A DNA stretch of 47,822 bases, from positions 1 through 47,822 of the forward strand of contig JAFLTV010000015.1 of the NCBI GenBank assembly GCA_022509105.1. Direction: 5' to 3'. Within the stretch, counting starts at the first letter, position 1. Each line of letters begins with the position of its first letter. Made by a program: the position numbers and the translations under genes. The DNA is from Muribaculaceae bacterium. Its GTDB lineage: Bacteria; Bacteroidota; Bacteroidia; Bacteroidales; Muribaculaceae. The notes beneath the pieces were generated by a model. The model did no database searches. It saw nothing but the letters and a program-made list of their open reading frames with translations, and was not told where the DNA came from. Below, piece by piece: positions 20,972-41,017 of this stretch.

Positions 20972-20985
20972 GGTAGCATAAAGTT

Positions 20986-21043: not shown

Positions 21044-21077
21044 CATCAAAAATTTCAATCCTCTTAAAATATAAAAA

Positions 21078-21479
21078 TTGGCACTTTCGTCTGTCATACA
21101 ATTCGGAGATAACAACATCACGAGATATTCACGCGAATATCCTCTGCTTAATGTAGAATTGCATTTTAAAAGAGAAGACGACGGATTCAGGCCCACAACC
21201 GACGCAGTGTGTGAGTCTGTTGTTTTATCTTTAGTTGCCCCGCCGGAAAAAGACCGTTTCTTCAACAAATGGTTTATAGACGGCGAAGAACAAAGCGGGT
21301 GTATTTTGACAGAAATTTCCGACCCGACTAAAGATAATGAACCCGTGGTGAAAGAAATTTATTTTCAAGATGCAATGTTGTTTTCGTTTGAGGAGAATTT
21401 TGAATTGGATATCAGAAGAAGAAGTTTTAAACTTGGAATGACTGCGGCCACCTTCAAAATTCAAGATATAAGCTTTTAA
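21078..21479 (+). CDS. Divergent TssD/Hcp-like protein 3
   Basis: A 133-residue protein starting at TTG (21078); no ATG lies near the N-terminus and the sequence MALSSVIQFGDNN fits a TssD-like first strand. It shares the tube-protein layout: N-terminal strands, a central acidic segment with FFNKWFIDGEEQSG, and a C-terminal strand (TAATFKIQDISF). Sequence divergence from tssD1 and tssD2 suggests a specialised ring, for example the tube-to-spike or tube-to-baseplate adaptor. Identification as a tube homologue is by pattern and position; moderate certainty. Confidence 0.6.
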   Translation: MALSSVIQFGDNNITRYSREYPLLNVELHFKREDDGFRPTTDAVCESVVLSLVAPPEKDRFFNKWFIDGEEQSGCILTEISDPTKDNEPVVKEIYFQDAMLFSFEENFELDIRRRSFKLGMTAATFKIQDISF

Positions 21480-21481: not shown

Positions 21482-21958
21482 ATGGCTGACTTGTTTTCTA
21501 ATAGAATTAATGTCGCTTTATTTCACGGGAATATCCAGGATAACTCTATGTTTTCGAGAAATGATGCTGTAGTTGTGGGTCATTATCAATACTCATGTCG
21601 AAAGACTCGCAACAATTCCGGCATGCCCTACGGTTTCATCCATGCTTCATATCTGGATGTGACTGTTAGAAATATTTCCGAAATCTTCGAGAAAGAGCTT
21701 TTAAGCACGATGACCACAAATGAAGCCGATGACTATACCTTCCTTTTTAACGCAGATTATGACAATAATCTAAGAATCAAACGCTATGACGATGGCTTTA
21801 TAGTAAGGGCCTTTCCGATAGATATAGTAGAATCTTTCTCAGGAAGCAAAGAAGGAAACGAGGATGACGGACAAAGAATTATAAAAATAAAAATGCTTAT
21901 CACCTCAATTATTTATTTAGGAGAATCATCTCTGTCCTTAAACATTACTAATGCTTAA
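21482..21958 (+). CDS. Divergent TssD/Hcp-like protein 4
   Basis: A 158-residue protein starting 2 bp after the previous stop, so tightly coupled to it. Its beta-rich sequence with a central helix (VRNISEIFEKELL) resembles an Hcp/TssD or phage tail-tube fold with a longer loop near residues 115-125 (GSKEGNEDDGQ). The gene lies directly before vgrG, where an adaptor between tube and spike would be expected. Functional call is inference; I do not recognise a named family. Confidence 0.5.
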   Translation: MADLFSNRINVALFHGNIQDNSMFSRNDAVVVGHYQYSCRKTRNNSGMPYGFIHASYLDVTVRNISEIFEKELLSTMTTNEADDYTFLFNADYDNNLRIKRYDDGFIVRAFPIDIVESFSGSKEGNEDDGQRIIKIKMLITSIIYLGESSLSLNITNA

Positions 21959-25876: not shown

Positions 25877-27694
25877 ATGGATCAAGTATTCGACAAATGG
25901 CTACAGGCTTTGGATTCATTCAGGAACTCCGTGACAAAAGATCTTGATGAGATAAGGCGTCATAAAAGAGAAATACAGCAATTGCGTCAAGAGATAGCTT
26001 ACGATTTATCGGGGGGCTACTTTCTGAGAGATGAGAAACGTCTGGTTTTATCAGCTCCCGAAATCATAATCGGAAATGTAGATAGATCAGGGGAATCAAT
26101 AGGAGAAGGAAATATAGTGATAATCCGTGGTGGCAATGTGAATGTCGAGGGGATAGGGAAAACCGGAAAGATTGAAATAAAAGCTCCCGGCATTTATAAT
26201 ATAGCCGTTGATCCCGGTCCTGATGGCAAAGATATGGCTATAGGCAGCATTTCTGAGATTGTATCCCAGGCTCAATCAATAGATATGCAAGCTCATAATG
26301 AGAGCGAATTTTTTACATCAAAGTTTGATCTGCCGTCGGCAGGTGGAATTAATATAAAAGCCGACAAAAAAATTAAACTTGATTCCGGCAAAAAGTCTAA
26401 GGCAAGAAAGAATTCTCTCTCAGATCTACAGAAAGAATTGGAAGATCAAAAAAAGGAAGAAGAGAAAAAAGCTGACAAAATTAAAAAGCAGTTTGAAGAA
26501 AATCTCAATAAAATAAAAAAATTGATAGAAAGCCACACAGAAAACATTACTGATGAAAATAAACTGAGAGCCAATATTCAGAATCTTTTTGAAATCAACG
26601 ATGAGTTTAAAATCAGAGCAAAACATCTTGCAGCTCTATTCCAATATTATGGAGAAAGCATAGCCGCTCTTGCCGAGACTAACCGGCAACTTAATGCGAC
26701 AAAAGCACAAAAAGATAAGGTTGTTACCGGCGATGACTTCACAAAAAAAACCACAGGAGCCAATATAACAATTAATTCGGAAAAAGTTAACATTAATTCA
26801 GTTGATGGCGAAGGAACCATACGCGAAAATCCGGAAGCCGCAATCAGCCTAAATGCTCTAAACATCAACTTGACATCTTTAAAGAAGGATAAAAGTCTTA
26901 TCGACAAAGGCAACATAAATCTAACGGCCCAAACTGTGGGTATTTCCACATTAGACACCCTTGACGAAGAGAAAGACGGACAAGGAAAACTCAAAAAAGG
27001 AAATTATCCGGCAAAAGGGGATGTTATTATTAAATCAAAAAATGTCTCTCTAAAGTCGGTTGACTATGAATTTAAAGACAACGAGAAGAAAGAAAAGTCT
27101 TTGACAGCGGGGGGCCGATTATCTGCTCGCTTTGAAAATGTAAATATTGAAACCACTGATACAGAGGGGAAGGCCACAGGGAAGATAAGTCTAAACTCCA
27201 AGAAACTCAAACTCAGGTCGATGGATCTTGACAAAGACTCACGTAAGCCTAAAGAGCTTTCTAAGGATAGTTCTGCAATATTGCTTTCAAATGTCATGTT
27301 TATAGGAGATTCGAAACAGGAAAGTAATGCTGTTCAAATCTTTTCCGACACTGTAAGACTTTTTGGGAAATCCTCTGTGGTATTGTCACAAGGGAAAGAT
27401 TATGACTCCAATATTGCCATGACAGACAAAAATATGGCGTTTAATTCGGGCAATGTTGAATTTATTTCCAAAGCTACCAAACTTTATTCTGACATAAAGA
27501 TTACTGAAGGAAGTCTCACAGCCCCCACAGCTACGATTACTGAACTTGAAGTGAAGAGCAACCTTAAAACTCCCTCTATTACAGATGGATTTTCAACGGG
27601 GGGAGCACCACTAAAAACTTCGGCAAAGAAAAGTGATCCTCCTTTGGTATATGATGAGGAAAATGCCGACGCAGACGACGGCACAAGAGATTAA
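25877..27694 (+). CDS. Spike-associated beta-helix-like protein
   Basis: A 605-residue protein, 9 bp after vgrG. Residues 1-45 are a coiled coil; about 45-160 and 290-570 are rich in alternating hydrophobic/polar short strands (ITINSEKVNINS, ISLNALNINLTSL, NINLTAQ) like the triple-stranded beta-helix of VgrG needles; about 165-280 is a Lys/Glu-rich coiled coil. The end is an acidic tail. I do not recognise a named family. Placement between vgrG and the PAAR-like gene and the needle-like repeats suggest a second spike component, a spike sheath, or a carrier of cargo. Confidence 0.6.
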   Translation: MDQVFDKWLQALDSFRNSVTKDLDEIRRHKREIQQLRQEIAYDLSGGYFLRDEKRLVLSAPEIIIGNVDRSGESIGEGNIVIIRGGNVNVEGIGKTGKIEIKAPGIYNIAVDPGPDGKDMAIGSISEIVSQAQSIDMQAHNESEFFTSKFDLPSAGGINIKADKKIKLDSGKKSKARKNSLSDLQKELEDQKKEEEKKADKIKKQFEENLNKIKKLIESHTENITDENKLRANIQNLFEINDEFKIRAKHLAALFQYYGESIAALAETNRQLNATKAQKDKVVTGDDFTKKTTGANITINSEKVNINSVDGEGTIRENPEAAISLNALNINLTSLKKDKSLIDKGNINLTAQTVGISTLDTLDEEKDGQGKLKKGNYPAKGDVIIKSKNVSLKSVDYEFKDNEKKEKSLTAGGRLSARFENVNIETTDTEGKATGKISLNSKKLKLRSMDLDKDSRKPKELSKDSSAILLSNVMFIGDSKQESNAVQIFSDTVRLFGKSSVVLSQGKDYDSNIAMTDKNMAFNSGNVEFISKATKLYSDIKITEGSLTAPTATITELEVKSNLKTPSITDGFSTGGAPLKTSAKKSDPPLVYDEENADADDGTRD

Positions 27695-27698
27695 AACT

Positions 27699-28088
27699 AT
27701 GGGAAAGTTTATTTGCAATGGAGCAATATTACAATGTTCTTTCGGGATGGCACCATCCACATTGTTGGTGGTGGATCCGACACGCCCCAAGATACAGAAC
27801 ATGCCAATGGCAAACATCATGGACAACAAGCCCTTGGTGAATATTCTTCCATTCGGAATGTGTCAGAGCATGGCTAACCCTACAGTAGCGTCGGCAACAG
27901 CAGCTGCAATGGGAGTGCTTACCCCGATGCCCTGTATTCCCGTTATAGCGGCACCTTGGACTCCCGGAGGTCAAGAGAAAATCTCCAACTTCCCGGCTCT
28001 GCTCGACAATTGTAAATGTATCTGCAATTGGGGTGGACAGATTTCCATAAATAATCCCGGTAATATGGCCAACTCTACGGGAAAATGA
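27699..28088 (+). CDS. PAAR-like (DUF4280) spike-tip protein
   Basis: A 129-residue Cys/Gly/Pro-rich protein with the DUF4280/PAAR-like pattern: CNGAILQCSFGMAPS, NILPFGMCQSMANP, MPCIPV and the C-terminal DNCKCICNWGG. PAAR proteins form a zinc-bound cone that sharpens the VgrG spike. The in-frame region extends upstream to 27633, but the ATG at 27699, 5 bp after the previous stop, gives the normal PAAR N-terminus MGKFICNGA. Confidence 0.82.
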   Translation: MGKFICNGAILQCSFGMAPSTLLVVDPTRPKIQNMPMANIMDNKPLVNILPFGMCQSMANPTVASATAAAMGVLTPMPCIPVIAAPWTPGGQEKISNFPALLDNCKCICNWGGQISINNPGNMANSTGK

Positions 28089-28134: not shown

Positions 28135-29505
28135 GTGAGATTATTTACGCTGATATTGGGTATTTTAATTGTGCAAGTGACACTGGCACAAAGCATCTCC
28201 GTGGAAAATTTTCAGCATCATAAACATTATTTCTGGCAGATTAATTCTCAACTCCCGCTCGATAAAAATAATGCATCCGTTTTATTGAAGTCAAAAATCA
28301 AGGGCTTGAAATTCTCTACTTCTAAGGAAAGCCCCATTGAAGTTGAAGAGGATGAAGAAGGCTTTTTATTGAAAGTGCCTGACAAAACCAAATACATCAT
28401 AATAAGTCATCCCGAATTAGGCGTCTATACATGGAGAGTACCTGTTAAATTCCTCAAAAAACATAATTATTACTCTGTTGATTTATATGCCACTGATTTG
28501 ACAAAGGAATTTAAAAATCCAAACCAATGGGTGGTTTTCAACATCTCTCCTGAAAATGCTATCCTGACAATTGATTCCGTGGTAAACAGGATTAACGATG
28601 GGAATATATCCCTTTATTTGCCCGTGGGGAAACATTCTTTCACTATAGAATCTCCATTTTATGAGTCTATATCAGATTCTATTACCCTTATTGATTCAGA
28701 AAAAATAGAAAGAAATATATTTCTTCAACCGCTTTATTCTTACCTCACAGTGGCCGCTGAAGATGAGAGTGTGGAAATTTTTGTAGATGAAGAAAGGCGA
28801 GGAACAGGCAATATAACTATTGGAAGGATCACTGACGGTCATCATAGATTATCTTTATTAAAAAATAATAAATGGATAAATGATACTATAATATATGTAG
28901 GGAGGGCCGAGAAGAAAACCATAACTTTCAGGGATAACCATACAAATGGTAATTTTAAAATGTTAACAGAAAAATTTGAAAAAAATCCGAAGCCCAATAT
29001 TTATAGAGAATTGTCAATAGTAAAAAATAATCCTGAGAAGATGCTTTCAGAGTTAAGAAATCGAGGAGACAACACAATAATGGCTCTCGTAAAATTAACT
29101 GCGGAGGATACTTTATCGCTTATTCTTATTGACCGAGAACCGGTTGGATATGGAGAATGGTCTGGTTTGCTTTCAGAGGGATTTCATCTGATCACCACTG
29201 AAAAAGATGGCAAAGAGTCAGCAGTTAAACATTTAACAATCGTAGACAACCAACCTATAGAACTGCAGCTTAATGCTCCAACAAGCGGAGAAGGGCTTGT
29301 GAATTTACAAACGAATGTGACAGGCGCAGAGGTGCTAATTAAAGATAAGATAATAGATCAAACACCTTGTGTGATCACTGGTTTGAAACCCGGAGAAACC
29401 TATACTCTTACAATACGAAAGGATGGTTATCAAACGAAAAAAGTGGAAGTTCTGCCAAAGGGAAATCAAGTGATACAAGTGGATGTGACACTCAAAAAAG
29501 ATTGA
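28135..29505 (+). CDS. Exported PEGA-domain protein
   Basis: A 456-residue protein with a signal peptide (1 to about 19, ending VTLAQ) starting at GTG; an in-frame stop at 28111 and no ATG between make GTG the likely start. It contains PEGA-type beta-domains, most clearly at about 200-260 (EIFVDEERRGTGN) and 375-455 (GAEVLIKDKIIDQTP and a DGYQTKKVEV stretch). PEGA domains occur in envelope proteins and are thought to bind other surface proteins or peptidoglycan-linked structures. Its place between the spike and baseplate genes suggests a periplasmic role in docking the machine. Function unproven. Confidence 0.72.
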   Translation: MRLFTLILGILIVQVTLAQSISVENFQHHKHYFWQINSQLPLDKNNASVLLKSKIKGLKFSTSKESPIEVEEDEEGFLLKVPDKTKYIIISHPELGVYTWRVPVKFLKKHNYYSVDLYATDLTKEFKNPNQWVVFNISPENAILTIDSVVNRINDGNISLYLPVGKHSFTIESPFYESISDSITLIDSEKIERNIFLQPLYSYLTVAAEDESVEIFVDEERRGTGNITIGRITDGHHRLSLLKNNKWINDTIIYVGRAEKKTITFRDNHTNGNFKMLTEKFEKNPKPNIYRELSIVKNNPEKMLSELRNRGDNTIMALVKLTAEDTLSLILIDREPVGYGEWSGLLSEGFHLITTEKDGKESAVKHLTIVDNQPIELQLNAPTSGEGLVNLQTNVTGAEVLIKDKIIDQTPCVITGLKPGETYTLTIRKDGYQTKKVEVLPKGNQVIQVDVTLKKD

Positions 29506-29510
29506 CTGAC

Positions 29511-30212
29511 ATGAGAAAAAATATATCATTGCTTTTAGAGGAGGCTAAATCCCAATTCAGCGGATATACCGCGTTATATGCATATCGGCTAATGAATTTA
29601 TGTGTAAAGGCCGATCCTGTTTCATTATTAAGCATTGAGATAAATGAAAACGGCCGTATTATAAATATTGAGACAGTGGCCAATGTTAGTCGACCCGACG
29701 ATTATCATTTCGAAATATATCCTAAAACTGAGGGCGCGTTAAAAGAGATTTCCAAGGGAATAGTGGGAAGTCATCCCGAATTCAAGCAAGAAATTAAGAA
29801 CCAAAACGAGGAGGATGATGAAGAAAATCAATTTCTGTATATCACTATTCCAGACACCGACGATGACAGGTATAAAGCTTTGAAAGATGGTGTTGAAATT
29901 CTTTCTGATGAATGTAAGGCCAATCTGGATTTCACTTTTTCCAAATATTCAGCAAAAATCATTGAAAAGTTGGAGGGAGGGAAAAAAGAGGAAATTGATG
30001 AGGCAAATGAGCAGCTGAAAGAACTTAAAGAGCAGATAGAAAAGATTTCCAAAGACTATAAAGAGGCTAAGCTAAAGGAGATTGAAGAATCACATGATGC
30101 TTTTTTAGAAAAAAAGGAGGCGGAAAAAGACCGGGAAGAAAGAGAGGAAAAGGCACATAATAAGAATGCAGGGATGAGCATGAAACTTTTTGGAGAGGAT
30201 GATGACGAATAA
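29511..30212 (+). CDS. Ribosome-recycling-factor-like protein in the machine operon
   Basis: A 233-residue protein not assigned to a named T6SS family. The layout resembles ribosome recycling factor (about 186 residues): an N-terminal helix (1-33), a beta-rich insert (38-115) whose ETVANVSRPDDYHFEIYP segment parallels the RRF pattern VAxVSTPDxRxxxIxP, and IPDTDDDR (113-120) where RRF has IPPLTEERR, then long charged helices (116-210). The conserved basic RRF residues that touch rRNA are not evident. The acidic, Lys/Glu-rich C-terminus is extra. It overlaps the E1-like gene by 11 bp, implying coupled translation. Whether the fold is truly RRF-like needs a profile or structure comparison. Confidence 0.55.
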   Translation: MRKNISLLLEEAKSQFSGYTALYAYRLMNLCVKADPVSLLSIEINENGRIINIETVANVSRPDDYHFEIYPKTEGALKEISKGIVGSHPEFKQEIKNQNEEDDEENQFLYITIPDTDDDRYKALKDGVEILSDECKANLDFTFSKYSAKIIEKLEGGKKEEIDEANEQLKELKEQIEKISKDYKEAKLKEIEESHDAFLEKKEAEKDREEREEKAHNKNAGMSMKLFGEDDDE

Positions 30213-31332
30213 TTGCTTCAGACAAGAATTACTCGACACTGCAAAAATTATGGTGGTGGGTTGTGGCGCCTTGGGAAACGAGGTGTTGAAAAACCTTGCA
30301 CTCATGAAGGTGGGAAACATTGTGGTTGTTGACTTTGACAATGTGGAGGCAGAGAATCTTCAACGCTCTGTTCTCTTTTCCGAGATTGAAAATTCTGTTG
30401 GCAGGCCAAAAGTGGATGTTGCGGCTGAAGCTATAAAAAAAATAAATCCGGAAACGAACCTGAAGGTTATTAATGGCGATATATCCGCCGATGTCGGTTT
30501 GGGTTTGATCAGAGAAATTGATGTGGTGATTGGATGTGTTGACAATCGGTGGGCAAGATACTGCATCAACAGAGTTTGTATGCGTGCCGGCGTTCCTTGG
30601 ATCGACGGAGGCATATCGGAATTGGAAGGTTCTGTCAAGATTTTTGAGCCCGGTAAAAATTGTTATGCCTGTTCCCTTTCTAATGAAGATCTCAATGAAA
30701 TGAGAAAACGTTTCTCTTGTGTGGGAAACATTAGAAGGGCCCTTCAGACCGGAAGCGCGCCGACCACTCCTTTGATTGCATCTGTAATCGGCTCGGTTCA
30801 AGTGCAGGAAGCCTTGAAATTGATTCATAATAAATATGCACAGGATAATAAATTTGAGACGCTTTCCGGGAAAATGTTTTTTTATGACGGAAAACATCTC
30901 ACTTCGGCCACAGTCGATTTTCAAGCCTTTGACGATGATTGCCCACATCATGAAAAATGGGAGCCGATTAAAGAATTTTTATTTACAAATAATAATAAGG
31001 CTTCATTTATTTTGGAAATATTAAGGCAAAATTCAGGGTCAAATGTGGTCGTTTCATTAATCAATGATAAATTTGTTGAGTCGGTGATTGATAAGGAAAC
31101 AGATGAAGAATATCCTGTTAATCTTCCTGCAAGATTTATAGAGAGATTCATAACCAATGACCCCTCATTAAATAAAAAGCCTTTGAGCAGCTATTATCAA
31201 AAGGAAGTGGCAGAGATACATAGAGACAGCCCCCAATCCGAGTTAACATTAAAGCAACTTGGAATTCCGGAGCGCGAAGTCTTGAAAGTAAGGGATATGA
31301 GAGGAAAGGAATATTATATCGGAATAAGATGA
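30202..31332 (+). CDS. E1-like ubiquitin-activating enzyme (ThiF/UBA family)
   Basis: A 376-residue adenylation enzyme. The Rossmann ATP site GCGALG is at 20-25, the DxxxxENLxRS motif at 45-56, GRPK at 67-70, and the VDN(R) motif near 113-116. Zinc ligands are suggested by CYAC (154-157) and C247 with neighbouring histidines. C173, in RFSCVG before APTTPLIASVIG, is the best candidate catalytic cysteine, in a UBA5/UBA3-like context. The last 110 residues form a C-terminal domain that could bind E2. It should adenylate the C-terminal glycine of the ubiquitin-like protein at 35463. The start is ATG 30202 (or 30199), with GGAGAGG just upstream; the stop overlaps tssG by 4 bp. Confidence 0.85.
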   Translation: MTNNCFRQELLDTAKIMVVGCGALGNEVLKNLALMKVGNIVVVDFDNVEAENLQRSVLFSEIENSVGRPKVDVAAEAIKKINPETNLKVINGDISADVGLGLIREIDVVIGCVDNRWARYCINRVCMRAGVPWIDGGISELEGSVKIFEPGKNCYACSLSNEDLNEMRKRFSCVGNIRRALQTGSAPTTPLIASVIGSVQVQEALKLIHNKYAQDNKFETLSGKMFFYDGKHLTSATVDFQAFDDDCPHHEKWEPIKEFLFTNNNKASFILEILRQNSGSNVVVSLINDKFVESVIDKETDEEYPVNLPARFIERFITNDPSLNKKPLSSYYQKEVAEIHRDSPQSELTLKQLGIPEREVLKVRDMRGKEYYIGIR

Positions 31333-32114
31333 AATTTGATATTAAAATACCTGAAATAGGAGCTGAGATGATGCTCAACTATCTTTATCCGGAATTGGAA
31401 GAACTCTGGATAGTGCGTAATGAAGGTACTTTTTATCGAAACTACAATAATGATGCTCTATCAGTAAATCCTGACAGACAGGAGATTTCTCTTGCCCGCG
31501 ATGGGTTCTTAAAGCTTTTGCCTCAAGGTGTCATCTCTCCGGCCGATGAGTTGCAAAAAGGTGATAAAAAAGAGAAGATTAAAGAGATAGAAAGGAGAAA
31601 GAAAATATTAAAAGAAGCTTTTATCCCGATAGATACTTTTATTTTCAGAAGAAAGCTGAAGGCGGAAAGAGAAATTTCTGAACTCCTCAACGATAAGCTT
31701 GATTATATTTTACAAACTTATTTCGGAATAAAATACCGCGAAATTGAGAATCCCTATGTGAAAGAATGGGCCACACTCCTTCCTTATATTCGCAATAGAC
31801 GTGGAGACTACAACCTGATTAAAAATGTCTTGAAATCGCAATTTGAATGTAGGGTGGATGTATATGCCGGAAGATACAGCCGGTCTGATTCCACAAAAAA
31901 ATGGCTGCCTGTGATTCGTTATGATCTGATGATTGGTGGTCTTAAAAATGAAGAGTTTAATAAGCTTTCTGAAAATCTTCAACCCTTGAGGGATTTTATT
32001 TCAGAATGGTTTATACCGGCTGAGATGCGTTGTGAAATCTTGATTAAGGATCATAGGGGAACCCCGGTTTTAAACAACAATCTTACCCTTGACTATAACA
32101 CCCGGATCATATAA
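31329..32114 (+). CDS. tssG: TssG-like baseplate protein
   Basis: A 261-residue protein with the baseplate signature ARDGFLKLLPQGV (56-68), matching the LLPxGL pattern of TssG and phage gpI-type wedge proteins, and a typical LRDFISEWFIPA stretch near the C-terminus. TssG and TssF form the baseplate wedge on which the sheath nucleates. Its ATG overlaps the stop of the E1-like gene (ATGA), tying the E1-like gene to the machine at the level of translation. Shorter than proteobacterial TssG, as in Bacteroidetes. Confidence 0.75.
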   Translation: MKFDIKIPEIGAEMMLNYLYPELEELWIVRNEGTFYRNYNNDALSVNPDRQEISLARDGFLKLLPQGVISPADELQKGDKKEKIKEIERRKKILKEAFIPIDTFIFRRKLKAEREISELLNDKLDYILQTYFGIKYREIENPYVKEWATLLPYIRNRRGDYNLIKNVLKSQFECRVDVYAGRYSRSDSTKKWLPVIRYDLMIGGLKNEEFNKLSENLQPLRDFISEWFIPAEMRCEILIKDHRGTPVLNNNLTLDYNTRII

Positions 32115-32132
32115 AATTGAAACCTTTGGAAT

Positions 32133-33269
32133 ATGGATATAAACGATAAAATAAACTGGATGCCGGGAATGGAATTGACAGCAGAGACATTCCGACAATT
32201 TGAAGATTTCCTTGATTACCGTCAAAAGCTCGCTTTAAAAGCAGCATTGGGAAGAAATCAACTCGGCCTTCTCCCGGGAGCGGAATTTAAAAACAACGGT
32301 GTGTTCGTTAAAAATACATTTGAGATTCCCGACTTCAGATGTCTCGCAATTTTGCCTTCGGGCCAAATAATAAATGCCGACCGGGAGGTAGTGGTGAATA
32401 TCCCCATGCTTTATGGCGAGGAATATTATTTGGGTGTCAGCATATCGGGAGAAAGTCATGAGTTTGAACGGGAAGGTGTGCCATTCTTCTCTCCGGTTTA
32501 TAATTTTGCATTATATAGTTTGGATGATCTTAAAAAGAAAGATATTTTCCCTGTTGCAAAGTTCAGTGCTAAGGATGGCGTCTTAAGTTTATATCCTGAT
32601 TATATTGTGCCCTCTTTATTCATTTCAGAGAATAGAAGATTCTCTGAATTTAAAGAGAATTATATAAAAAAACTCGAAATAGTCGCGTCTCATACTAACC
32701 TGGAAGAGGGCGACGGAAAGAGAAGCTTGCTTCGATATCTTTTTATCTTAAGGAGCTTCAATGAAGATTCTAATGTTTCAGATTTCATTTCATTAATTCA
32801 GGAAATGGTACAGGCTATAGATTATTTTATAGTTTTGCCTAACACTGAAAATCATAAAGAGATTCCCTTTCCCGATTATTATGACATTGAAAAATGGCTC
32901 CTCTGGGTTGACTCTTTTCTTGAGGGTGCTGTAAGTGTGTTGGATAAAGTAGTTTTAGAAGACAAAACTATTGATTATAATGCTCTGCTTGAACAAGCAA
33001 AAAAAGAATTATATGATAAACTGCGTCCTGAATTATTGGAGAAACTTCCAAAAGAGATAAAAGAGGAAGTCTATGATGATATGACTTCCAGACTCAAGGA
33101 GTTCCTGCCTGATTATCTGAAGGAGAAACTTGATGAAATAAAGAGATTGATTGGAGATGATCTTGCTAAAATTTTAGAGCCGAAACTGTTTGATGATTTA
33201 TATCAAAAACTGTATGATGCGCTATATGTGGCTCCGGAAGAAGAAGATGAGTTCATGCCAATGATTTAA
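32133..33269 (+). CDS. tssK: TssK-like baseplate adaptor
   Basis: A 378-residue protein with the TssK N-terminal pattern INWMPGMELTAETFRQFE (7-24), which corresponds to the family's W-x2-G-x4-x2-HF motif. The first half is beta-rich like the phage receptor-binding shoulder domain; the C-terminal 80 residues are an acidic helical region. TssK links the baseplate to the membrane complex. Proteobacterial TssK is longer (about 440-450), so this looks like the Bacteroidetes form or one adapted to a different membrane anchor. Confidence 0.75.
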   Translation: MDINDKINWMPGMELTAETFRQFEDFLDYRQKLALKAALGRNQLGLLPGAEFKNNGVFVKNTFEIPDFRCLAILPSGQIINADREVVVNIPMLYGEEYYLGVSISGESHEFEREGVPFFSPVYNFALYSLDDLKKKDIFPVAKFSAKDGVLSLYPDYIVPSLFISENRRFSEFKENYIKKLEIVASHTNLEEGDGKRSLLRYLFILRSFNEDSNVSDFISLIQEMVQAIDYFIVLPNTENHKEIPFPDYYDIEKWLLWVDSFLEGAVSVLDKVVLEDKTIDYNALLEQAKKELYDKLRPELLEKLPKEIKEEVYDDMTSRLKEFLPDYLKEKLDEIKRLIGDDLAKILEPKLFDDLYQKLYDALYVAPEEEDEFMPMI

Positions 33270-33290
33270 TCCCCTTAAGGCTTTTAAAAG

Positions 33291-33749
33291 ATGAGGAATA
33301 TTTCTTTACCTTTCACAATAGAAAACGGACACCTTGCAGGAAATGAAAAGATTGGCAAGGCAATAAGCCAACACCTTGATTTATTATTGTCTACACCCTG
33401 CTATACGAGTCCCTCCGACCCGGAATATGGTTTCATTTTCAATAACCTTAAATTTGAAATATTCAACGAGAAGGAGGGAGTGGTTTACAATTCTTCGGAT
33501 ACTCCGGAAATTTTTGAGGGGAAAGAGGGCCTCTATGAAAAGAAAATTTCAGGCTCATCCAAAAACCTCAACACATTTGCATCAGAATTGAAAATCACAA
33601 TCAATCGATATGAAACCCGCCTTCAGGATATTTCCGTTTCTATGACCTATGTTAGAGAAGAAAGATTGATTTATATAAATATCAAGGGAACGATAAAGGC
33701 AACCGGAGAAGATTATAACTATACCACAACATTGAAAGTCTGGAAATGA
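33291..33749 (+). CDS. tssE: TssE (gp25-like) baseplate wedge protein
   Basis: A 152-residue gp25/lysozyme-like-fold wedge protein. The family EPR motif appears as ETRL at 108-111, followed by the amphipathic strands VSMTYVREERLIYINIKG, as usual for gp25. It connects the baseplate to the first sheath ring. The last 4 bp overlap tssF (ATGA), implying translational coupling. Confidence 0.82.
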   Translation: MRNISLPFTIENGHLAGNEKIGKAISQHLDLLLSTPCYTSPSDPEYGFIFNNLKFEIFNEKEGVVYNSSDTPEIFEGKEGLYEKKISGSSKNLNTFASELKITINRYETRLQDISVSMTYVREERLIYINIKGTIKATGEDYNYTTTLKVWK

Positions 33750-35446
33750 AGCAAACTATTTTCGAAACAAGAGAACGAGCCAATGAACTATTGAAGAACT
33801 CATTGGAAGTATGGAAACAGAGTGATTTTGCAGATGCTCTGGAGGGTATTGAGAATGATCCGGTTTTCTCTTTGTTGATTGGCGCGCTGGCATATCAGGA
33901 AAATGAGTTTGATAATGATATAGCCCGTCTTAAAGAAGAAATTACAGAAGATTTCGCCCGGTTAATGACTCCGTTTGAGGCCGGACATGCCCTGCCGGCT
34001 TCCTTGGTGGTGTCTTCCCAACCTTCATCTTCATTGGCTGAAACCCTAATCACCGGTGACTCGGAATTCAGAGTAGGGGAGTTTTCTTTTATTCCTTTAT
34101 TTGATTCTAAAGTTGTGAATGTGTCTTTAGGAGATATAGAGCGGTTAGACGGAAGGCGTTGGAAAGTGGAATTAAATTTCATATATCCGCTTTCAAGTTT
34201 AAATGGATTCTCTTTTGCCGTAAGAGATTTGGATTTCCGAACCTTGAATGTCAAAATAAAAGGTTGTCTTTGCCAAATCATTAAACCCTGGAATTCCTCG
34301 GAACTTCCATATTCAAAATACTTTAATCCGGATTCACTCATATACAATCATGGAGAATATTTCACAGGGTCAATGTTGCCATTTGATCTGTTTTCACAGC
34401 AAAATATCAGGATTTTCTGGATTGATAATTTTGAAATAAATTCCAATGAACAGGAATTTAATAAATTAGAACTCATATTTGAATTTACGGGAATAAAAGA
34501 AGATTTTTTATTCAATGTCAACAATATTGTGTTGAATCCGATATTCCTCGTAAATGCAAGTGTGAAAGAAGCAGTCTTGTCTGCGTCTCACCCGATTGTC
34601 AGAATCGCCGGCTATTCCGAGTCAAACAGAAACGAAGTTTCACAACAATTCCTTCAGCTTATAAGACCTAAAAACAATCAGTTGTATTCAAACACGGAAC
34701 TTGAAGTGAGACGTATCTCGGCCGACAGATTTAATCAGGGAAATCTTGTGAAACTTCTAAGCTCAATTGTAAATAAATATCACACTGATTTTTACGCATT
34801 CCAAAATCTTGAAGAAATGAAGTCAGACCGGCTTATATATAATCTTCAGGAATTAGTGGCAAAGATGATTAAGAAATCACAAAAAGACTACTTGAAAAAT
34901 ATAGCCGGCGTCTATTTGCTTCTGCATGAAAGAAGCAGATTGAAGGATCACTCATTCAGCCTGACAGTCAATTATCTTACAACGGCAGGTGAGGCTGTAA
35001 ATGAAACCCTGAACGGAGATTTCAATATTCAATCGCCGGGAAATCTGAACAGTAATGCCACCTTGCAAATTGCTTCTCCCTCCCGTGGCCTTAACGAAGT
35101 GAGCAGTGAATCTGTTTCTAAAACATTGTTAAGATACTACATGCTCACCAATGACAGAATAGTTACACCTTCCGACATCAAGCTATTCTGTTTCAAGGAA
35201 CTTCAACGCAGATATTCTTTCGGGGAGGAAACCATCAGAAATATAAAAGTGGCTCAACGACAAACCAAAGAAAATTATGGGCCCGGATATGAAATTTGCG
35301 TGGATATTTTCTTGACTGGCTCCTCTATGGTCAAGAAAATTCTGGGAAAGAAATTATCTCAGTTAGAGTTTGTGCTTCAAAAAATGATAGAGATCCGAAC
35401 CACCGGTATCTATCCGATAAGAGTCAATATAACAATAGAAGAATAA
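33746..35446 (+). CDS. tssF: TssF baseplate protein
   Basis: A 566-residue protein of the TssF/VasA type, with the family stretch RLMTPFEAGHALPAS near 72-86 and a C-terminal region containing FCFKELQRRYSFG and IYPIRVNITIEE. TssF forms the baseplate wedge with TssG. Its length is close to the family norm of about 590-620. The ubiquitin-like gene follows after 16 bp. Confidence 0.82.
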   Translation: MKQTIFETRERANELLKNSLEVWKQSDFADALEGIENDPVFSLLIGALAYQENEFDNDIARLKEEITEDFARLMTPFEAGHALPASLVVSSQPSSSLAETLITGDSEFRVGEFSFIPLFDSKVVNVSLGDIERLDGRRWKVELNFIYPLSSLNGFSFAVRDLDFRTLNVKIKGCLCQIIKPWNSSELPYSKYFNPDSLIYNHGEYFTGSMLPFDLFSQQNIRIFWIDNFEINSNEQEFNKLELIFEFTGIKEDFLFNVNNIVLNPIFLVNASVKEAVLSASHPIVRIAGYSESNRNEVSQQFLQLIRPKNNQLYSNTELEVRRISADRFNQGNLVKLLSSIVNKYHTDFYAFQNLEEMKSDRLIYNLQELVAKMIKKSQKDYLKNIAGVYLLLHERSRLKDHSFSLTVNYLTTAGEAVNETLNGDFNIQSPGNLNSNATLQIASPSRGLNEVSSESVSKTLLRYYMLTNDRIVTPSDIKLFCFKELQRRYSFGEETIRNIKVAQRQTKENYGPGYEICVDIFLTGSSMVKKILGKKLSQLEFVLQKMIEIRTTGIYPIRVNITIEE

Positions 35447-35462
35447 CAAAAAAATAATAAAA

Positions 35463-35780
35463 GTGGAAGATTTTTTTCTAAATATAATATATCATAACAA
35501 AAAAGTGAAATTCAGAGTCGCCAACCCTGAAGCTTCTTTGAGCACACTTGTTAATAATCTGCGTCATGCAATCGGAGCGGATGGAAAATTGATTTTTGAT
35601 TTCCCCTCCATTGATGAAACCGGCGCTCCAATCGACTATTTTTTTGGAGTGGAGGATCCGGAGGTGCATGAAATAAGGGTGTTACGTCCCCGGATAGGAA
35701 GAACGGATCAGACTCTTGAAGATTATAACATTCATAATGGTGACACTCTTTATCTGATTCCGGATCCCATTCCGGGATGA
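35463..35780 (+). CDS. Ubiquitin-like beta-grasp protein with a bare C-terminal glycine
   Basis: A 105-residue protein starting at GTG. It begins with a beta-hairpin (3-20) and helix (26-37), and its C-terminal third reads TLEDYNI (84-90), TLYL (95-98) and ends in PIPG. This lines up with the ubiquitin C-terminal part, which has TLSDYNI followed by TLHL and ends in Gly-Gly. The final residue G105 is at the stop codon, so the form needed by E1 is made directly, without a processing peptidase; no JAB or cysteine deubiquitinase gene is visible nearby. A YukD-like non-conjugated role is possible, but the E1-like and E2-like neighbours argue for activation. Confidence 0.82.
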   Translation: MEDFFLNIIYHNKKVKFRVANPEASLSTLVNNLRHAIGADGKLIFDFPSIDETGAPIDYFFGVEDPEVHEIRVLRPRIGRTDQTLEDYNIHNGDTLYLIPDPIPG

Positions 35781-35835
35781 ATCCGGTTTCATGATAATAA
35801 TCTCAATGAGTTAGAATCAAAAAAATTAAGATTTG

Positions 35836-36441
35836 ATGGAATTGCAAAGTTTCAAACATAACCTTAAAGATTTTAAAGGCAGAAACAGGCGTCTTTTGCA
35901 TGAATGGCAGAAGATAGAAGTTCGTTTTGCCAATGATGATGAGATTGAAGTGTGGGTAAACAAAGAAAATTCGGCGGGACTTCCCATTGCCTATTGGGTT
36001 AAATTTCATATCAATTGTATTTGTGGTGTTAGAAATATTGAGAAATTGGGGGAGAAGGGAATAGTTAATACTCCGATTTTTAATAATTATTACACGATGG
36101 AGATTACAATCCCCGAAAACTATCCCGATATAGATGGTCTCCCGATATTTAAATTTGACACACTTACTCCGGATGGCCTGGATAGAGACACGCCATGGCA
36201 TCCGAATATCCGATTCTTCGGCCCTATGAAAGGATTGGTTTGCTTAAATAGAACTGACACTTTTGGAGATATCGCCGATGGCATAACAAGGATAGCCGAT
36301 TATTTGAAATATAAACTTTATCATGCTGAGTTGACCCCGCCTTATCCCGAAGATTTGAAAGTGGCTCAATGGGTGAGAGAACAAGGCGAGCCGAATGATT
36401 GGTTAACAGAATGTCAACCTCCTAAAAGATATATGGATTGA
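35836..36441 (+). CDS. E2-like ubiquitin-conjugating enzyme
   Basis: A 201-residue UBC-fold protein with the E2 active-site signature: HPN (122-124), then a glycine-containing loop and C136 followed by Leu-Asn, the canonical HPN...G-x-(I/V)-C-L pattern. Before it come strands YYTMEITIPENYPD (85-98) and PIFKF, matching the E2 FxxxIxFPxxYPxxPPxxxF core. The E2 should carry the ubiquitin-like protein as a thioester on C136. A TTG immediately before the ATG at 35836 is less likely as start. The stop is 5 bp before the next start. Its location within baseplate/membrane genes suggests a target in the machine. Confidence 0.85.
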   Translation: MELQSFKHNLKDFKGRNRRLLHEWQKIEVRFANDDEIEVWVNKENSAGLPIAYWVKFHINCICGVRNIEKLGEKGIVNTPIFNNYYTMEITIPENYPDIDGLPIFKFDTLTPDGLDRDTPWHPNIRFFGPMKGLVCLNRTDTFGDIADGITRIADYLKYKLYHAELTPPYPEDLKVAQWVREQGEPNDWLTECQPPKRYMD

Positions 36442-36446
36442 GAAAA

Positions 36447-37649
36447 ATGAATTCAGGAATACAAAAATACATAACAATTATATTCTTTTTGATTTCTGCC
36501 TTTTCAAGCGTAAAGGCACAATCAATCAGAGATATAACTGTTGCTTACAATAAATCGTTTACAGATCATGTCTCTCTCGCTTCCGATTCAAGAGATATGG
36601 ATGTCATTGTGAAATTTATCTTTAATGAAGATACAAACCAGCTCACTGTCAGCCTTATTTCTTATAGATATTTGTTTGTTTTTAGAGAAGATTCAAGGTA
36701 TGGGAATATAATTCATCATAATCGTCTGGATCCGGAAGATCTCCCGTATGTGGCTGAGTTTCCTGAAAAAAGCAGGTTTATTCTTTCCAAGAAATTCATA
36801 AACTTTATTCCTAAGCCCCATAAAGATTATATATTCACCAAATGGATAGAATATCGGGGACTGCAGCCTGTGGCCATGAAATATAAAATGGTGAATGATT
36901 ATATTGAACAAACGTTTGATGTCACCAACTATGGAAAGAACGTGATGGTGAAATTAGGATATATATTTCTGATGGAGAAGACTCCTTCAAAAAAGCATCC
37001 TGACGACTACACTTTTGTTGCCGGGAAAAACCTGAACCTTGAATATAGGATCTCAATCGTCAGAAATCCCTGTTTTGGTCTGGAAAATGAAATCGAATTG
37101 GCAAAGAATACTTTAGATGCTGTAGAGAAGGCCTACCGGAATTTCAGCGGAGCCTTTAAAACCTTGGAAGTAGAAACGGAGGCTGAACTAACAAACTTCA
37201 ACAACATGAAGGAGGTTTTATTGACACAGTTCCAAGTAAAAGAATCCGACTCCCAATGTCCTGAACTTAAAGAATTATGGGATGAATACAACAGTTATGT
37301 TGAATCCATAGCAAGTTTGAACCTGACGCTAAAAATAAAAGAGAAGCAAGGGACCGGAGGAAACGGAGTAGCTTCCGGAGGAAATGAAGGAGAAGGAGGA
37401 CCTATAAATATTGATCCTGCTGAGATATCTACTCTTGCCCGGCAAATTGACAGAAATGTATCCCGATGGCTGCTAAGTAAAGACACTGTTGAAAAACAGG
37501 ATCTGGTTAGGGAATGTCAGGATATTATATCCGAAGTAAACGGTTTGATAGGTATACATCAAGGGAGCACACAGGAACAAAAGAGAGCCGTGGGCATGTT
37601 CCGGCAGGCGGAAGCTTATTTCAGAAACACTTGTGGGGTAAAGAAATAA
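36447..37649 (+). CDS. Exported coiled-coil protein of the machine operon
   Basis: A 400-residue protein with a signal peptide (1-24, ending VKAQ). A beta-rich region (25-200) is followed by coiled coil (about 205-300), a Gly-rich linker (about 307-325) and a helical C-terminus with one conserved-looking Cys. It is predicted periplasmic or outer-membrane-linked. I do not recognise a named family. As the first of four consecutive envelope proteins following the baseplate and E2 genes, it may form part of the membrane complex in place of TssJ/TssL/TssM. The ATG at 36447 is chosen over an in-frame TTG at 36438 that overlaps E2. Confidence 0.62.
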   Translation: MNSGIQKYITIIFFLISAFSSVKAQSIRDITVAYNKSFTDHVSLASDSRDMDVIVKFIFNEDTNQLTVSLISYRYLFVFREDSRYGNIIHHNRLDPEDLPYVAEFPEKSRFILSKKFINFIPKPHKDYIFTKWIEYRGLQPVAMKYKMVNDYIEQTFDVTNYGKNVMVKLGYIFLMEKTPSKKHPDDYTFVAGKNLNLEYRISIVRNPCFGLENEIELAKNTLDAVEKAYRNFSGAFKTLEVETEAELTNFNNMKEVLLTQFQVKESDSQCPELKELWDEYNSYVESIASLNLTLKIKEKQGTGGNGVASGGNEGEGGPINIDPAEISTLARQIDRNVSRWLLSKDTVEKQDLVRECQDIISEVNGLIGIHQGSTQEQKRAVGMFRQAEAYFRNTCGVKK

Positions 37650-37658
37650 AAAGTCAGT

Positions 37659-38591
37659 ATGATAAAGGGCTTCATAAAGATATTCATAATTATATTCTCG
37701 TTTTTCAGCTTCTTGAATGGCAAATCACAAGAAACCGAACCTGTCTACCCAATAGAAGAAGAGACTTTTGAGGAGATAGAATATAATGAGGAGGATTTCG
37801 ACCCTGCCATTAAAATTTTGGAACTGCAGGAAAAGATTGATGGATTTTTAGAAGAACTTAATGGTTTGCAAAACTCTTATACGCGGCCATTTAAAATAAC
37901 TAAAGATCAACGGCTTTCAAAGACCTATATGAAGCGACTTTCAGACGATATTAAATCTAATGAAAGAAAGTTGAAGTCTTTTGATTTGAGATGGAATATT
38001 TTCTATCAGACAGAGCAGCCTGTAATTGCAACCGACGATGAACTAATGACCATGGTAGATGATCTTAACATCATTAAGTCGGCTGTGGAAGATTCAATTG
38101 CCGGGCGCCGGAATATTGTTCAGGCCATCAATGATTTTAATGCGGCTGAGAAGTTTTTGGCAGATCAAGACACAATTTATAAAGTCTTGGGGAAAAAAGC
38201 TATGGAACTCTCTCTTACTTCCAAAACAGCTCCACAACTTGAAAACCTTAAAGTGAAGGAACAGATTATTTTTGAAGATATCCAAAGCCATTATGAAAAG
38301 GCTAAACAAGGAAGCAGTCTTTTTAAACTGTCTCAACAAGAGATTGATAATCTCGACAATAGATATGCAGCTCTCAAGAATAAGTCTGTAAAGATTCAGG
38401 AAATGGCTTATGTCCCTTGGATACAAAGGATTAAGGATTATCTTCTTGGCATTGCCGCTGTGGCAATCATCATAATGTTCTTTAATATGGTGGTTAGTAA
38501 AATCAAGGCTGCCAAAAAGATGAAGGATAATCTTAAGAAATATCAGGAAACAATGGATCGGAACGAAAATAATGACATACCCTCAATATGA
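37659..38591 (+). CDS. Membrane-anchored coiled-coil protein of the machine operon
   Basis: A 310-residue protein with an N-terminal hydrophobic signal (1-23), a largely helical/coiled-coil periplasmic body, and a C-terminal transmembrane segment (about 262-282) followed by a Lys-rich tail. The arrangement is that of an inner-membrane-anchored periplasm-spanning protein. No family recognised; it resembles in layout, but not clearly in sequence, the TssO/TssP-type membrane parts of Bacteroidetes T6SS. It overlaps the RING-bearing gene by 4 bp (ATGA), so the two are probably made together and interact. Confidence 0.62.
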   Translation: MIKGFIKIFIIIFSFFSFLNGKSQETEPVYPIEEETFEEIEYNEEDFDPAIKILELQEKIDGFLEELNGLQNSYTRPFKITKDQRLSKTYMKRLSDDIKSNERKLKSFDLRWNIFYQTEQPVIATDDELMTMVDDLNIIKSAVEDSIAGRRNIVQAINDFNAAEKFLADQDTIYKVLGKKAMELSLTSKTAPQLENLKVKEQIIFEDIQSHYEKAKQGSSLFKLSQQEIDNLDNRYAALKNKSVKIQEMAYVPWIQRIKDYLLGIAAVAIIIMFFNMVVSKIKAAKKMKDNLKKYQETMDRNENNDIPSI

Positions 38592-41017
38592 AAATGAGTT
38601 TACTATATAAGGCGATTTTATTTTGTGGTATAATGTTGTGCGTTGTTTCGTGCGATAAAATATCTCAAAATGAAGATTTGGATGCTTTCTTTTCAGATAT
38701 CGAAGAAGAATTCAGTTTGAAAGGTGACGACACCGGAATGATTGTAAAAGATGTGGTGTTTTCGCCGGATAATAAAACATTCTATGTCACAACCCATATA
38801 ACCCGGGATATCGGGCCCTATGCGCTGACAGACAGCACAAAAACAAAAATTGTTGTAGAAGAAAAAATCAACGGTGTGCCATTGGATAAATCTTCCGGAT
38901 CCCACTTGGTGAAAGCCAGCAATACAGGCAGTGAGGAAATCGCAAGAATGGGTTATAAAGTACTCGCCCTTGTGGATTTGACAGCCGGTCAGCAATTGGT
39001 CGACCGACAGAAGAAGATGATCTCCGAGATGGCAACGGTCTTCAATCATGACAATCTATATGTGGCGTTTATGGAGGATGGAAATATTTCCGAAACCATG
39101 ATGCTTACCCCTTATATTCTTGACAATTATTTTGTGGCTTCTGAAAAGAAAAATAAATATCTCTTCGGTTCTATTTTGGAAAAAGAGAAAGAAATGGCTG
39201 CAGGAGAGGGGATTTGGAATGAAGAGGATCCGCTTTCCCTTGTTGTTTTTTCAGATGCTAAAGTGTATGATGAGGATGATTATCCTATAGAGCCGAATTA
39301 CTTTCAGAAAAAAAAGGAGTTGATTGACTATGCCGATGATCTTCAAGGGAAAAACATCACAGTGAGCTTTGTGAATGTTTCCAATTCAACTGATGAATAT
39401 GAGGAAACTGATAATGTTGAGGTTCAGAGTGTTTTCGACCTTATTGCAGAAAAGACAAATGGCATTCATCAGGATCATTTCAATTATACGGAATTACAAA
39501 CAACAATTCTTGGGCCTGAAGGCGACAGCATAGCTGATGACAGATTTGATTTTGTAAACCCGGATAAGAAGATTTACAGCGGCTCGGAAAACGAACTGAA
39601 AATTTCATTCTATAATATAGAAGATGGAAAGCTGATAACATCGACCACTGCAAAAATTATTAAAGGAACCAGCTATAAGCCTGTGATCGTTAATGGATTA
39701 AGCACTCCTCTCGTGATTCTCAAAGGGTGTGTAATCATTATGGTGATTTTATTTGCTGCCTGGCTGATATTTCAATTTGTGGTTCCATTTATCCAATATA
39801 AATATTTCCTTAAGAAACATGTGGTTGATTACTCAGGCTCGAATATGAGTGTAAACAACCGTCTGGTAGGTGAAAGTTGTTACTATTGTAAATCTCCGTT
39901 TGAGAAGGGAGATAAAATCGTAGTGAAATGCGACCACTCCCTGCATAAGGAATGTTGGGACGAAAATGAATATCATTGTCCGGAATATGGATCCAAATGC
40001 AAAGAGGGTTCCCATTATTATAATTATAAACGATTGCTGGATCCTGAAAATTCACCATTTTATCTGAAGTGGATTTTGATCTCCATATTGGCAGCCGGGT
40101 GTGCCTGGATTGTCTTTACAGCACATCTTCACTATGTGGTGGGTGAAATGTTTGAAGACCTGATTTTTGCTTTCACAGAAGTGCCTGAAGATTCTAAAGA
40201 AGCGGCATTTGCAATTCAGGAATATGACGACCCTATGGGGCAGGCTCCTGCTTTTGGCCTGACTTTGGGATTCTTTTTAACGTTAGGTTTGTCATGGCTG
40301 ACAGTGCATGTCACAGATATTAAACGTCAATGGCTTGAAATTTTCTTCCGTTCAATAGTTTCCGGGGTTGCTTGCTGTTTTGTTTTTTTCACTATCGCCG
40401 TAATAGGATTCACCGTTGAATGGGATATAGCTTATCTTGTTGATTGGATTCCCTGGTCGGTGTGCGCTTTTATACTGGTTTTTGCTTCCACATGGAGAAC
40501 ACCTGTAAGAGTGAAATCTTATGTGTGGTGGGTTTGCCTGATTCTGGGAGTATGTGCCATGCTGCTTTGGGCCATCCAGTTTAGAGGAGCTAATTCCGAT
40601 TACAGGATATTCCAGTTGATTATTTTTATTATATACTCTTTGACCCTGGCTCTCTGCATAGCCTGCGAGGCCCCGAGATCTAACCATTATTTCCTGAGAA
40701 TGACCGGTGGAATAAAACCTATGGATGTGGCTCTGTTCAAATGGTTTAAGAATAATCCGAATTATGCTGTCACTATTGGAAGAAGCGTGGATTGTTCATT
40801 GCAGATTTCATGGGATATCAGGAATGACATCGCTCCTGTTCAAGCTGAAATAAAGAAAAAAGGATCTGCATATGTCTTGATTCCTTTGGAAGATGGGGTC
40901 TTTATTAATGAAAAAAATATCATTCCCGGCAAGAAAATCACATTATATAATGGATTGACTTTCATGATTGGAGACACAGAATTCACCTATGTTGAAAAAG
41001 ACACACGAAAAAGATAA
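38588..41017 (+). CDS. RING-finger, FHA and vWA-like seven-TM lipoprotein, candidate E3 and membrane anchor
   Basis: An 809-residue protein. A lipobox (VVSC, C22) begins a periplasmic region with a degenerate vWA-like segment (123-270; DLTAG in place of DxSxS). TM1 (about 375-399) leads to a cytosolic zinc finger with spacing C431-x2-C434-x13-C448-x-H450-x2-H453-x2-C456-x7-C464-x6-C471, a RING-H2-like set with an atypical last pair. Six more TM segments (about 494-512, 553-574, 590-611, 617-634, 645-662, 674-692) follow, then a C-terminal FHA domain (about 726-803, GRS at 731-733). Positive loops put both RING and FHA in the cytosol. It may recruit the E2 to the machine while the FHA reads phosphothreonine. 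Confidence 0.75.
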   Translation: MKMSLLYKAILFCGIMLCVVSCDKISQNEDLDAFFSDIEEEFSLKGDDTGMIVKDVVFSPDNKTFYVTTHITRDIGPYALTDSTKTKIVVEEKINGVPLDKSSGSHLVKASNTGSEEIARMGYKVLALVDLTAGQQLVDRQKKMISEMATVFNHDNLYVAFMEDGNISETMMLTPYILDNYFVASEKKNKYLFGSILEKEKEMAAGEGIWNEEDPLSLVVFSDAKVYDEDDYPIEPNYFQKKKELIDYADDLQGKNITVSFVNVSNSTDEYEETDNVEVQSVFDLIAEKTNGIHQDHFNYTELQTTILGPEGDSIADDRFDFVNPDKKIYSGSENELKISFYNIEDGKLITSTTAKIIKGTSYKPVIVNGLSTPLVILKGCVIIMVILFAAWLIFQFVVPFIQYKYFLKKHVVDYSGSNMSVNNRLVGESCYYCKSPFEKGDKIVVKCDHSLHKECWDENEYHCPEYGSKCKEGSHYYNYKRLLDPENSPFYLKWILISILAAGCAWIVFTAHLHYVVGEMFEDLIFAFTEVPEDSKEAAFAIQEYDDPMGQAPAFGLTLGFFLTLGLSWLTVHVTDIKRQWLEIFFRSIVSGVACCFVFFTIAVIGFTVEWDIAYLVDWIPWSVCAFILVFASTWRTPVRVKSYVWWVCLILGVCAMLLWAIQFRGANSDYRIFQLIIFIIYSLTLALCIACEAPRSNHYFLRMTGGIKPMDVALFKWFKNNPNYAVTIGRSVDCSLQISWDIRNDIAPVQAEIKKKGSAYVLIPLEDGVFINEKNIIPGKKITLYNGLTFMIGDTEFTYVEKDTRKR

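Follow-up and report, generated by a model that had tools for sequence, protein, structure and literature searches.

The stretch of DNA analysed here (the window, 47,822 nucleotides) comes from a Muribaculaceae bacterium, where it lies on contig C7 (JAFLTV010000015.1) of genome G000, a draft of 2.39 Mb that is 89% complete. A same-strand run of genes between positions 14483 and 41017 carries the genes of a type VI secretion system (T6SS) together with those of an E1-like activating enzyme, a ubiquitin-like protein (Ubl), an E2-like conjugating enzyme, two proteins termed X and Y and a RING membrane protein. By its TssC (PF17541, E 3e-103) and its Hcp (PF17642, E 1e-27) the window qualifies as a Bacteroidota T6SS. 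The papers searched describe no T6SS that combines a cassette for Ubl conjugation with the lack of a detectable TssN. The original prediction had described E1, Ubl, E2 and RING genes among T6SS genes, and their coordinates, the gaps between them and the same-strand setting proved correct. Here, the E1 gene (30202-31332) overlaps TssG (start at 31329) by 4 bp, and the Ubl gene starts at 35463, 16 bp past the TssF stop at 35446.

Relatives were collected by scanning a species-genome collection with an E2 alignment, which yielded 122 relatives. From these, 80 were kept as named loci, meaning that their records are titled Bacteroidales, Bacteroidia, or families or genera within them. In a protein search with the E2, the best 300 candidates were scored and at least 247 of them reached an E value of 0.001 or better. 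For the residue counts (77 rows for E1, 82 for Ubl, 83 for E2 and 81 for the RING protein), locus L013, whose contig is that of L006, and proteins below length limits of 300, 80, 600 and 150 residues were dropped.

The E1-like enzyme comprises 376 residues (its frame is also open from a TTG at 30190) and matches ThiF (PF00899, E 5e-55). The GxGxxG motif, D44, D46, N52, K70, D114, C112, C173 and the quartet C154/C157/C247/H250 are present in 77/77 rows, and R55 in 75/77. C112 and C173 are the candidates for the catalytic cysteine. The nearest solved structure by sequence is MoeB, which would fit a MoaD/ThiS-like sulfur-carrier or cofactor pathway. Such a pathway was rejected on the partner genes and is extremely improbable: the E1 is accompanied by an E2 and a RING protein, a sister clade adds a JAB protein, and no biosynthetic family was found among the proteins scanned between 28135 and 41785.

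The Ubl (35463-35780) is a single domain of 105 residues that ends in DPIPG. Its Pfam matches of the ubiquitin type are all under the cut-off, and it was recognized by its family alignment and by an AlphaFold2 model of the ubiquitin-type beta-grasp fold (predicted local distance difference test score 88.9). The C-terminal glycine, which aligns to position 76 of ubiquitin, is present in 82/82 rows. Among 15 locus proteins compared, the Ubl is the most conserved, with a mean pairwise identity of 0.78; the comparison excluded the variant-order loci, L006 and proteins shorter than 0.8 or longer than 1.5 times their counterpart in the window. The values are 0.69 for Hcp (14 rows), 0.68 for the PAAR-like protein, 0.59 for both E2 and E1, 0.46-0.52 for the baseplate proteins and 0.39 for the RING protein. 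Such a high conservation is expected of a modifier that is read by many partners.

For the E2 (35836-36441), the window protein scores 16.8 bits against the Pfam family UQ_con with a cut-off of 27, and 23 of 35 family members match this family at E 0.01 or better. The family profile matches the structures of E2-25K/UBE2K (E 8.6e-5). Its HPN motif (122-124) and the cysteine (Cys136) are invariant in 35/35 family members and in 83/83 rows of the wider alignment. This also answers the question raised by the original prediction of whether the catalytic cysteines are kept in relatives, as they are for E2 (83/83) and E1 (77/77).

The E2 is followed by protein X (36438-37649), which has a single, N-terminal and signal-like hydrophobic stretch, and by membrane protein Y (37659-38591), with a signal-like N-terminal and one C-terminal transmembrane (TM) stretch. 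The last gene of the run (38588-41017) encodes the RING membrane protein, a candidate E3. It displays a lipobox cysteine (Cys22), a vWA-like domain, a TM helix, the RING at residues 431-471, more hydrophobic helices and an FHA domain at 728-795. The FHA match lies above the cut-off, whereas the best RING family in the window reaches 21.4 bits with a cut-off of 29.1; two RING families are matched by 34 and 33 of 42 aligned relatives. Seven of the predicted zinc ligands are kept in 81/81 rows and C464 in 80/81, with a six-residue spacing in the last pair. In a model of 809 residues, vWA and FHA folds, and not RING, are among the 50 fold matches listed, and the sequence profile found no match in the PDB. 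The FHA domain of the window lacks a histidine that is kept in those of G135, G429, G449, G552 and G646; this histidine is usual in FHA domains that bind phosphothreonine.

Since Ubl, E2 and RING stay below the curated Pfam cut-offs in the window, their identity rests on family evidence. Decayed enzymes are ruled out by the invariant catalytic residues, and the E1-Ubl-E2-RING set is likely, from its sequence, to carry out conjugation chemistry.

The set is tightly bound to the T6SS genes. In all 80 named loci, the Ubl gene and at least one of TssE/F/G/K lie on one strand, and the order E1-TssG-K-E-F-Ubl-E2-X-Y-RING, as far as present, is kept in 78/80, with L091 and L092 showing a variant order. 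Together with the invariant catalytic residues, this strongly supports the earlier view of a conjugation set built into the T6SS operon. The exact overlap of 4 bp between E1 and TssG recurs in 45/76 loci. E1 was seen in 76 loci, TssG in 77, TssK, TssE, TssF and RING in 78 each, X in 77 and Y in 72. Gaps of E1, TssG, TssK and RING are confined to stretches that break off close to E2, and those of TssE/F belong to L091 and L092, whose stretches end shortly past TssK. X is missing from the cut locus L018 and from L091 and L092, where its slot holds no match. The eight gaps of Y are accounted for by fusions (L043, L055, L073, L082), cut loci (L018, L085) and again L091 and L092. In the four fusions, one long open reading frame (ORF) matches the profiles of both Y and the RING protein. 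The order of VgrG and PAAR shifts between loci, and the tightest linkage of the set is to the baseplate genes E/F/G/K.

The order was sampled with 392 genomes, of which 6 contain this E2, 16 contain TssC and 5 contain both. In these five, E2 and TssC lie on the same contig, roughly 5-16 kb apart. The co-occurrence has a Fisher p of 3e-7 (7e-6 without the genome of the window), values which are only a guide because the genomes are related. Chance proximity is ruled out by this same-contig co-occurrence and by the linkage in 80/80 loci, and the proposed check of linkage across genomes thus came out far beyond chance. The set is linked to the T6SS in 5/6 genomes with E2, but most TssC-bearing genomes (11/16) are without it, so that it characterizes particular T6SS types rather than T6SSs in general. 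The reading of TssC genomes covered 14 of the 16 (15 loci), with G343 left out; in G332, TssC is a mere fragment where a contig ends, and the contig of G329 (6.6 kb) is too short for judgement. Carriers include Prevotella, Bacteroides, Parabacteroides and Alistipes genomes from gut and rumen.

The remaining genes of the run are likewise all on the plus strand. The run starts with a CarboxypepD_reg-like protein (14483-15649; match below the cut-off), kept in the same-genus relative G008, followed by a ClpV/TssH-type AAA+ ATPase (15690-18158; AAA_2, E 2e-56), the sheath subunits TssB (18185-18649; a weak Pfam VipA match, a profile to classical loci and position) and TssC (18691-20052), and three Hcp/TssD tube proteins (20139-21479; starts at 20139, 20573 and 21078). 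A protein of 158 residues without Pfam match (21482-21958), a VgrG-like spike of 1298 residues (21971-25867; Phage_base_V, E 2e-15) and a protein of 605 residues (25877-27694), again without Pfam match and with relatives in 51 loci, precede a PAAR-like spike tip protein (27633-28088), which forms a profile family and is named from its sequence rather than from a family scan. Next come an exported PEGA-domain protein (28135-29505; E 1e-18) and a gene whose role is unassigned and whose start is probably internal (29367-30212; relatives in 54 loci). The product of the latter matches ribosome recycling factor with 32.0 bits at a Pfam cut-off of 29.7, perhaps merely a shared coiled coil, and its position and strand vary between relatives. 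Downstream of E1 lie the baseplate subunits TssG (31329-32114; profile to classical loci and gene order), TssK (32133-33269; TIGR03353 at E 2e-4, below the cut-off, and profile to classical loci), the gp25-like wedge TssE (33291-33749; PF04965, E 3e-9) and TssF (33746-35446; profile to classical loci).

The PAAR-like protein ends in a lysine in 61/65 proteins of named loci, in 55 of them as GK; this lysine might accept a tag or simply form the tail. Together with the presence of Hcp, VgrG and PAAR in the same operon, it would fit a Ubl that marks cargo or serves as a tag for delivery, attached to Hcp, VgrG, PAAR, an effector or whatever else is secreted, with the RING protein only as the membrane site of loading. 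The aligned lysine, K151, is kept in 58/61. Bil is reported to tag the central tail fibre of a phage (Hor et al., 2024, as cited in PMC11364771). However, the linkage is tightest to the baseplate genes while the order of VgrG and PAAR shifts, only 1/3 of the variant-order PAAR tails read ends in lysine, and the Ubl hardly varies, which sets it apart from effectors. A tagging of secreted parts is therefore considered unlikely.

The second feature of these loci is the apparent lack of TssN. A survey of 443 systems describes TssN as nearly ubiquitous and systematically located between tssK and tssG, and each Bacteroidota T6SS is pictured as retaining the TssNQOPR complex at least in part (PMC10781749). 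In contrast to the classical order tssK-tssN-tssG, E1 abuts TssG in the window-type loci. Whole-genome searches found no TssN in G000 (the 89% complete draft), G008, G135, G255, G429 and G449, whereas it is present in 6/11 of the other TssC genomes. The vWA domain of TssR (PF20782) was not found in the six E2-type T6SS genomes either, which is a weak criterion, as it was also missed in 3/6 TssN-bearing genomes. TssO, TssP and TssQ gave no match in general Pfam/NCBIfam scans, in which their models were not searched by name. A kinship of the vWA domain of the RING protein with TssR_VWA was unsupported by the family search. The window type shares with T6SS-iii (GA1-3, TssNQOPR) the PF17541 TssC, PF17642 Hcp, ClpV, VgrG and TssE/F/G/K (PMC4714493, PMC10781749). 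It differs in that TssN and TssR_VWA were not found and in having E1, Ubl, E2, the RING protein and X/Y.

A sister clade with a variant order (Ubl-E2-...-JAB-RING-...-E1-TssG-TssK; G135, G255, G429, G449, L091, L092) adds a further component. Just before the RING gene, 6/6 of these T6SS loci carry a gene for a JAB protein with the JAMM motif (H-S-H-P), a membrane protein and putative deconjugase. In G135, no separate gene of the size of Y precedes it. In the window clade, JAB was found within reach in 0/78 named loci by motif or profile, apart from a weak profile match in L050 (E 0.009), a 63-residue antisense ORF taken as chance. A JAB of this family was likewise found in 0/10 whole genomes of the window clade, the window genome included, while both positive controls were found.

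A different equipment is seen in G313 (L105/L106), G319 (L093/L094) and G381 (L107), whose T6SS stretches contain Ser/Thr kinases, FHA domains and PP2C phosphatases, partly on the opposite strand, and in which TssN and the Ubl set were not found. Three kinase queries (E 1e-4) matched the stretches of G313, G319 and G381 only, and single-sequence searches at the same threshold for these kinases, PP2C, TssN and TssR gave no match in the E2-type stretches. In a TssC tree (25 rows, midpoint root), the kinase-bearing, long-branched G319 stands beside the E2-bearing G429 and G449 (support 100/96), and the E2-bearing G135 groups with the TssN loci and the remaining kinase loci (100/98). With three locus labels, this tree needs 3 changes, the minimum being 2. 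From these changes, the sets appear to have replaced one another. The sister-clade JAB, the lack of TssN and the kinase and phosphatase genes of relatives all lie outside the window and were not seen in the original prediction.

In Proteobacteria, T6SS assembly is licensed by the membrane kinase PpkA, the FHA protein Fha and the phosphatase PppA (PMC10482370). This threonine phosphorylation pathway resembles the present set in its membrane-associated writer, its eraser and its FHA domain; there, however, a kinase acts in place of Ubl conjugation, and no kinase was found in any E2-type stretch. A tentative and rather doubtful extension would be that a T6SS lineage gave up the TssN membrane complex, that a membrane ligase (vWA-TM-RING-TM-FHA with X/Y) anchors the T6SS and licenses docking by tagging the baseplate with its own ubiquitin, and that conjugation and a JAB eraser take the place which kinase, phosphatase and FHA proteins have in other T6SSs, tagging and phosphorylation being interchangeable switches.

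The reading that we favour is an action of the set on the injection machine. We consider it fairly probable that this is a T6SS with E1, E2, Ubl and RING protein, from a genome in which no TssN was found, and that in it the Ubl is conjugated to a machine component at the inner membrane and thereby licenses assembly. Here, the E1 would adenylate the Ubl at its C-terminal glycine, a residue that is already exposed in the encoded protein, so that no trimming is needed, and the Ubl would be passed as a thioester to Cys136 of the E2. In the vWA/FHA protein, the RING, placed between TM helices, would hold the E2-Ubl at the cytoplasmic face; it would be cytoplasmic if the vWA domain is periplasmic, a topology that we infer from the signal and one TM stretch. 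The role given to the RING protein follows from its being the only membrane member of the cascade in the window and from the fusion of Y to it in four loci; Y is likely its partner. The RING protein, X and Y would make up the missing membrane platform, in part if not in full, and the RING protein would recruit the charged E2. The tagged protein would be a baseplate protein (TssE/F/G/K) or one of the platform (X, Y or the RING protein), upon which the baseplate would dock and the sheath could build. Conserved lysines, as target-site candidates only, are K85 of TssE (79/79), K196 of TssK (76/77), K479 of TssF (76/79) and K151 of the PAAR-like protein. In the sister clade, JAB would take the tag off, and in the window clade without JAB the tag may be one-way.

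Several observations weigh against this reading. Among eight further named carriers, Bacteroides mediterraneensis An793 has TssN above the cut-off, and one more has a match below it. An793 (G877) possesses two TssC copies, one classical (751 bits) and one of the window type (347 bits), and its TssN may therefore belong to the second, classical machine, though the contigs are different. Since the window clade is without JAB, a reversible switch is not general. A single origin of the E2-type T6SSs was rejected on the TssC tree (p 9e-6, approximately unbiased test); they do not form one TssC clade, so that gain or loss of the link took place at least twice. In addition, the top fold matches of the Ubl model include talin F0 and EccD, and to our knowledge conjugation is not known for either. 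Alternatively, the Ubl could be a scaffold, held non-covalently, in a membrane complex that acts as a substitute, comparable to the beta-grasp domains of EccD or TssN, with E1 and E2 as structural remnants. The Ubl glycine (82/82), the HPN and cysteine of E2 (83/83), the E1 motif and cysteines (77/77) and the JAMM proteases of the sister clade argue against such a scaffold, which appears quite unlikely.

A last point against the favoured licensing of assembly is that E1-Ubl-E2-JAB-RING-like cassettes occur in G106, G552 and G646, genomes in which TssC was not found by a search without a control-genome match, the same family having matched in other scans. The cassette did not, then, arise solely for the T6SS. 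In a phylum-level sample, also of 392 genomes, three carry this E2, namely that of the window and two of another order (G552, G646). The cassette thus reaches beyond the T6SS link; the claimed tie to the injection machine stands as operon linkage but is not exclusive. The cassette of G106 (L011-L012) starts 1.5 kb from a contig end, with one side readable, and lies beside SrfB and a Virul_Fac protein; a second protein with a JAB motif is found at L012:4940-5794, and one TssR_VWA match below the cut-off elsewhere in the genome. In the cassettes of G552 and G646 (L115-L118) the vWA/FHA protein is present and the zinc ligands of the RING are lost, leaving a domain which we take to resemble a U-box. 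The Ubl tails extend four residues past AG in G106 and two past VPG in G646 and would need trimming.

In G552, the genes next to the cassette encode an nSTAND1 NTPase and an ion channel. Roles in defence are known for bacterial E1-E2-Ubl operons, which raises the question of whether the window set is a Bil/CBASS-like antiphage conjugation island located in a T6SS locus by happenstance. The Bil operon indeed acts in defence (PMC11354881). Nevertheless, the genes flank tssG-K-E-F with an order kept in 78/80 loci, one strand in 80/80 and the 4-bp overlap in 45/76, and the classical HPN E2, the single Ubl domain and the lack of JAB in the window clade do not fit. Such an island is very unlikely.

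Among known systems, Bil is reportedly the operon type 6d of Iyer 2006. Burroughs, Iyer and Aravind in 2011 are said to have predicted prokaryotic E1-E2-Ubl-JAB-RING operons, in what is reportedly the principal study of RING E3 operons in bacteria, and the free-standing cassettes may be of this kind. The RING protein of Caldiarchaeum subterraneum is not known to be a membrane protein. In Bil (BilABCD), Ubl, E1 and E2 share one operon, as here, and JAB is shared with the sister clade; BilA, however, has two Ubl domains (PMC11354881) in contrast to one in the window, and no JAB was found in the window genome. The E2 of type 6d lacks the classical histidine, and E1-E2-Ubl-JAB operons are described without mention of T6SS or RING in the available part of Iyer 2006 (PMC1779556). 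Caldiarchaeum subterraneum has E1, E2, ubiquitin and RING in an operon and the JAMM enzyme Rpn11; it differs from the present system in being archaeal, in its small RING protein and in the absence of a secretion machine from the abstract (PMC5654768). In the available text of papers on Bacteroidales T6SSs and injection systems, ThiF is not mentioned (PMC4714493, PMC10781749, PMC7394362), and ubiquitin wording is absent from that of PMC4714493 and limited in that of PMC10781749 to the ubiquitin-like fold of TssN/EccD. A 2023 review of T6SS regulation contains no word that starts with 'ubiquit' (PMC10482370). A T6SS or contractile system with such genes was not described among the matches listed, and an earlier mention in Burroughs 2011 is possible.

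Since catalytic residues, the terminal glycine and a secretion read-out are combined in one operon and cultured strains exist, a role of bacterial ubiquitination becomes directly testable here. If TssO, TssP and TssQ were absent too, the picture that every Bacteroidota T6SS keeps a part of TssNQOPR (PMC10781749) would be broken. If the proposed licensing is true, this would be an unfamiliar mode of control, in which a small protein tag is placed on a part of a syringe-like weapon that many gut Bacteroidales possess, and a bacterial ubiquitin-like cascade whose job would be to build or control a secretion machine.

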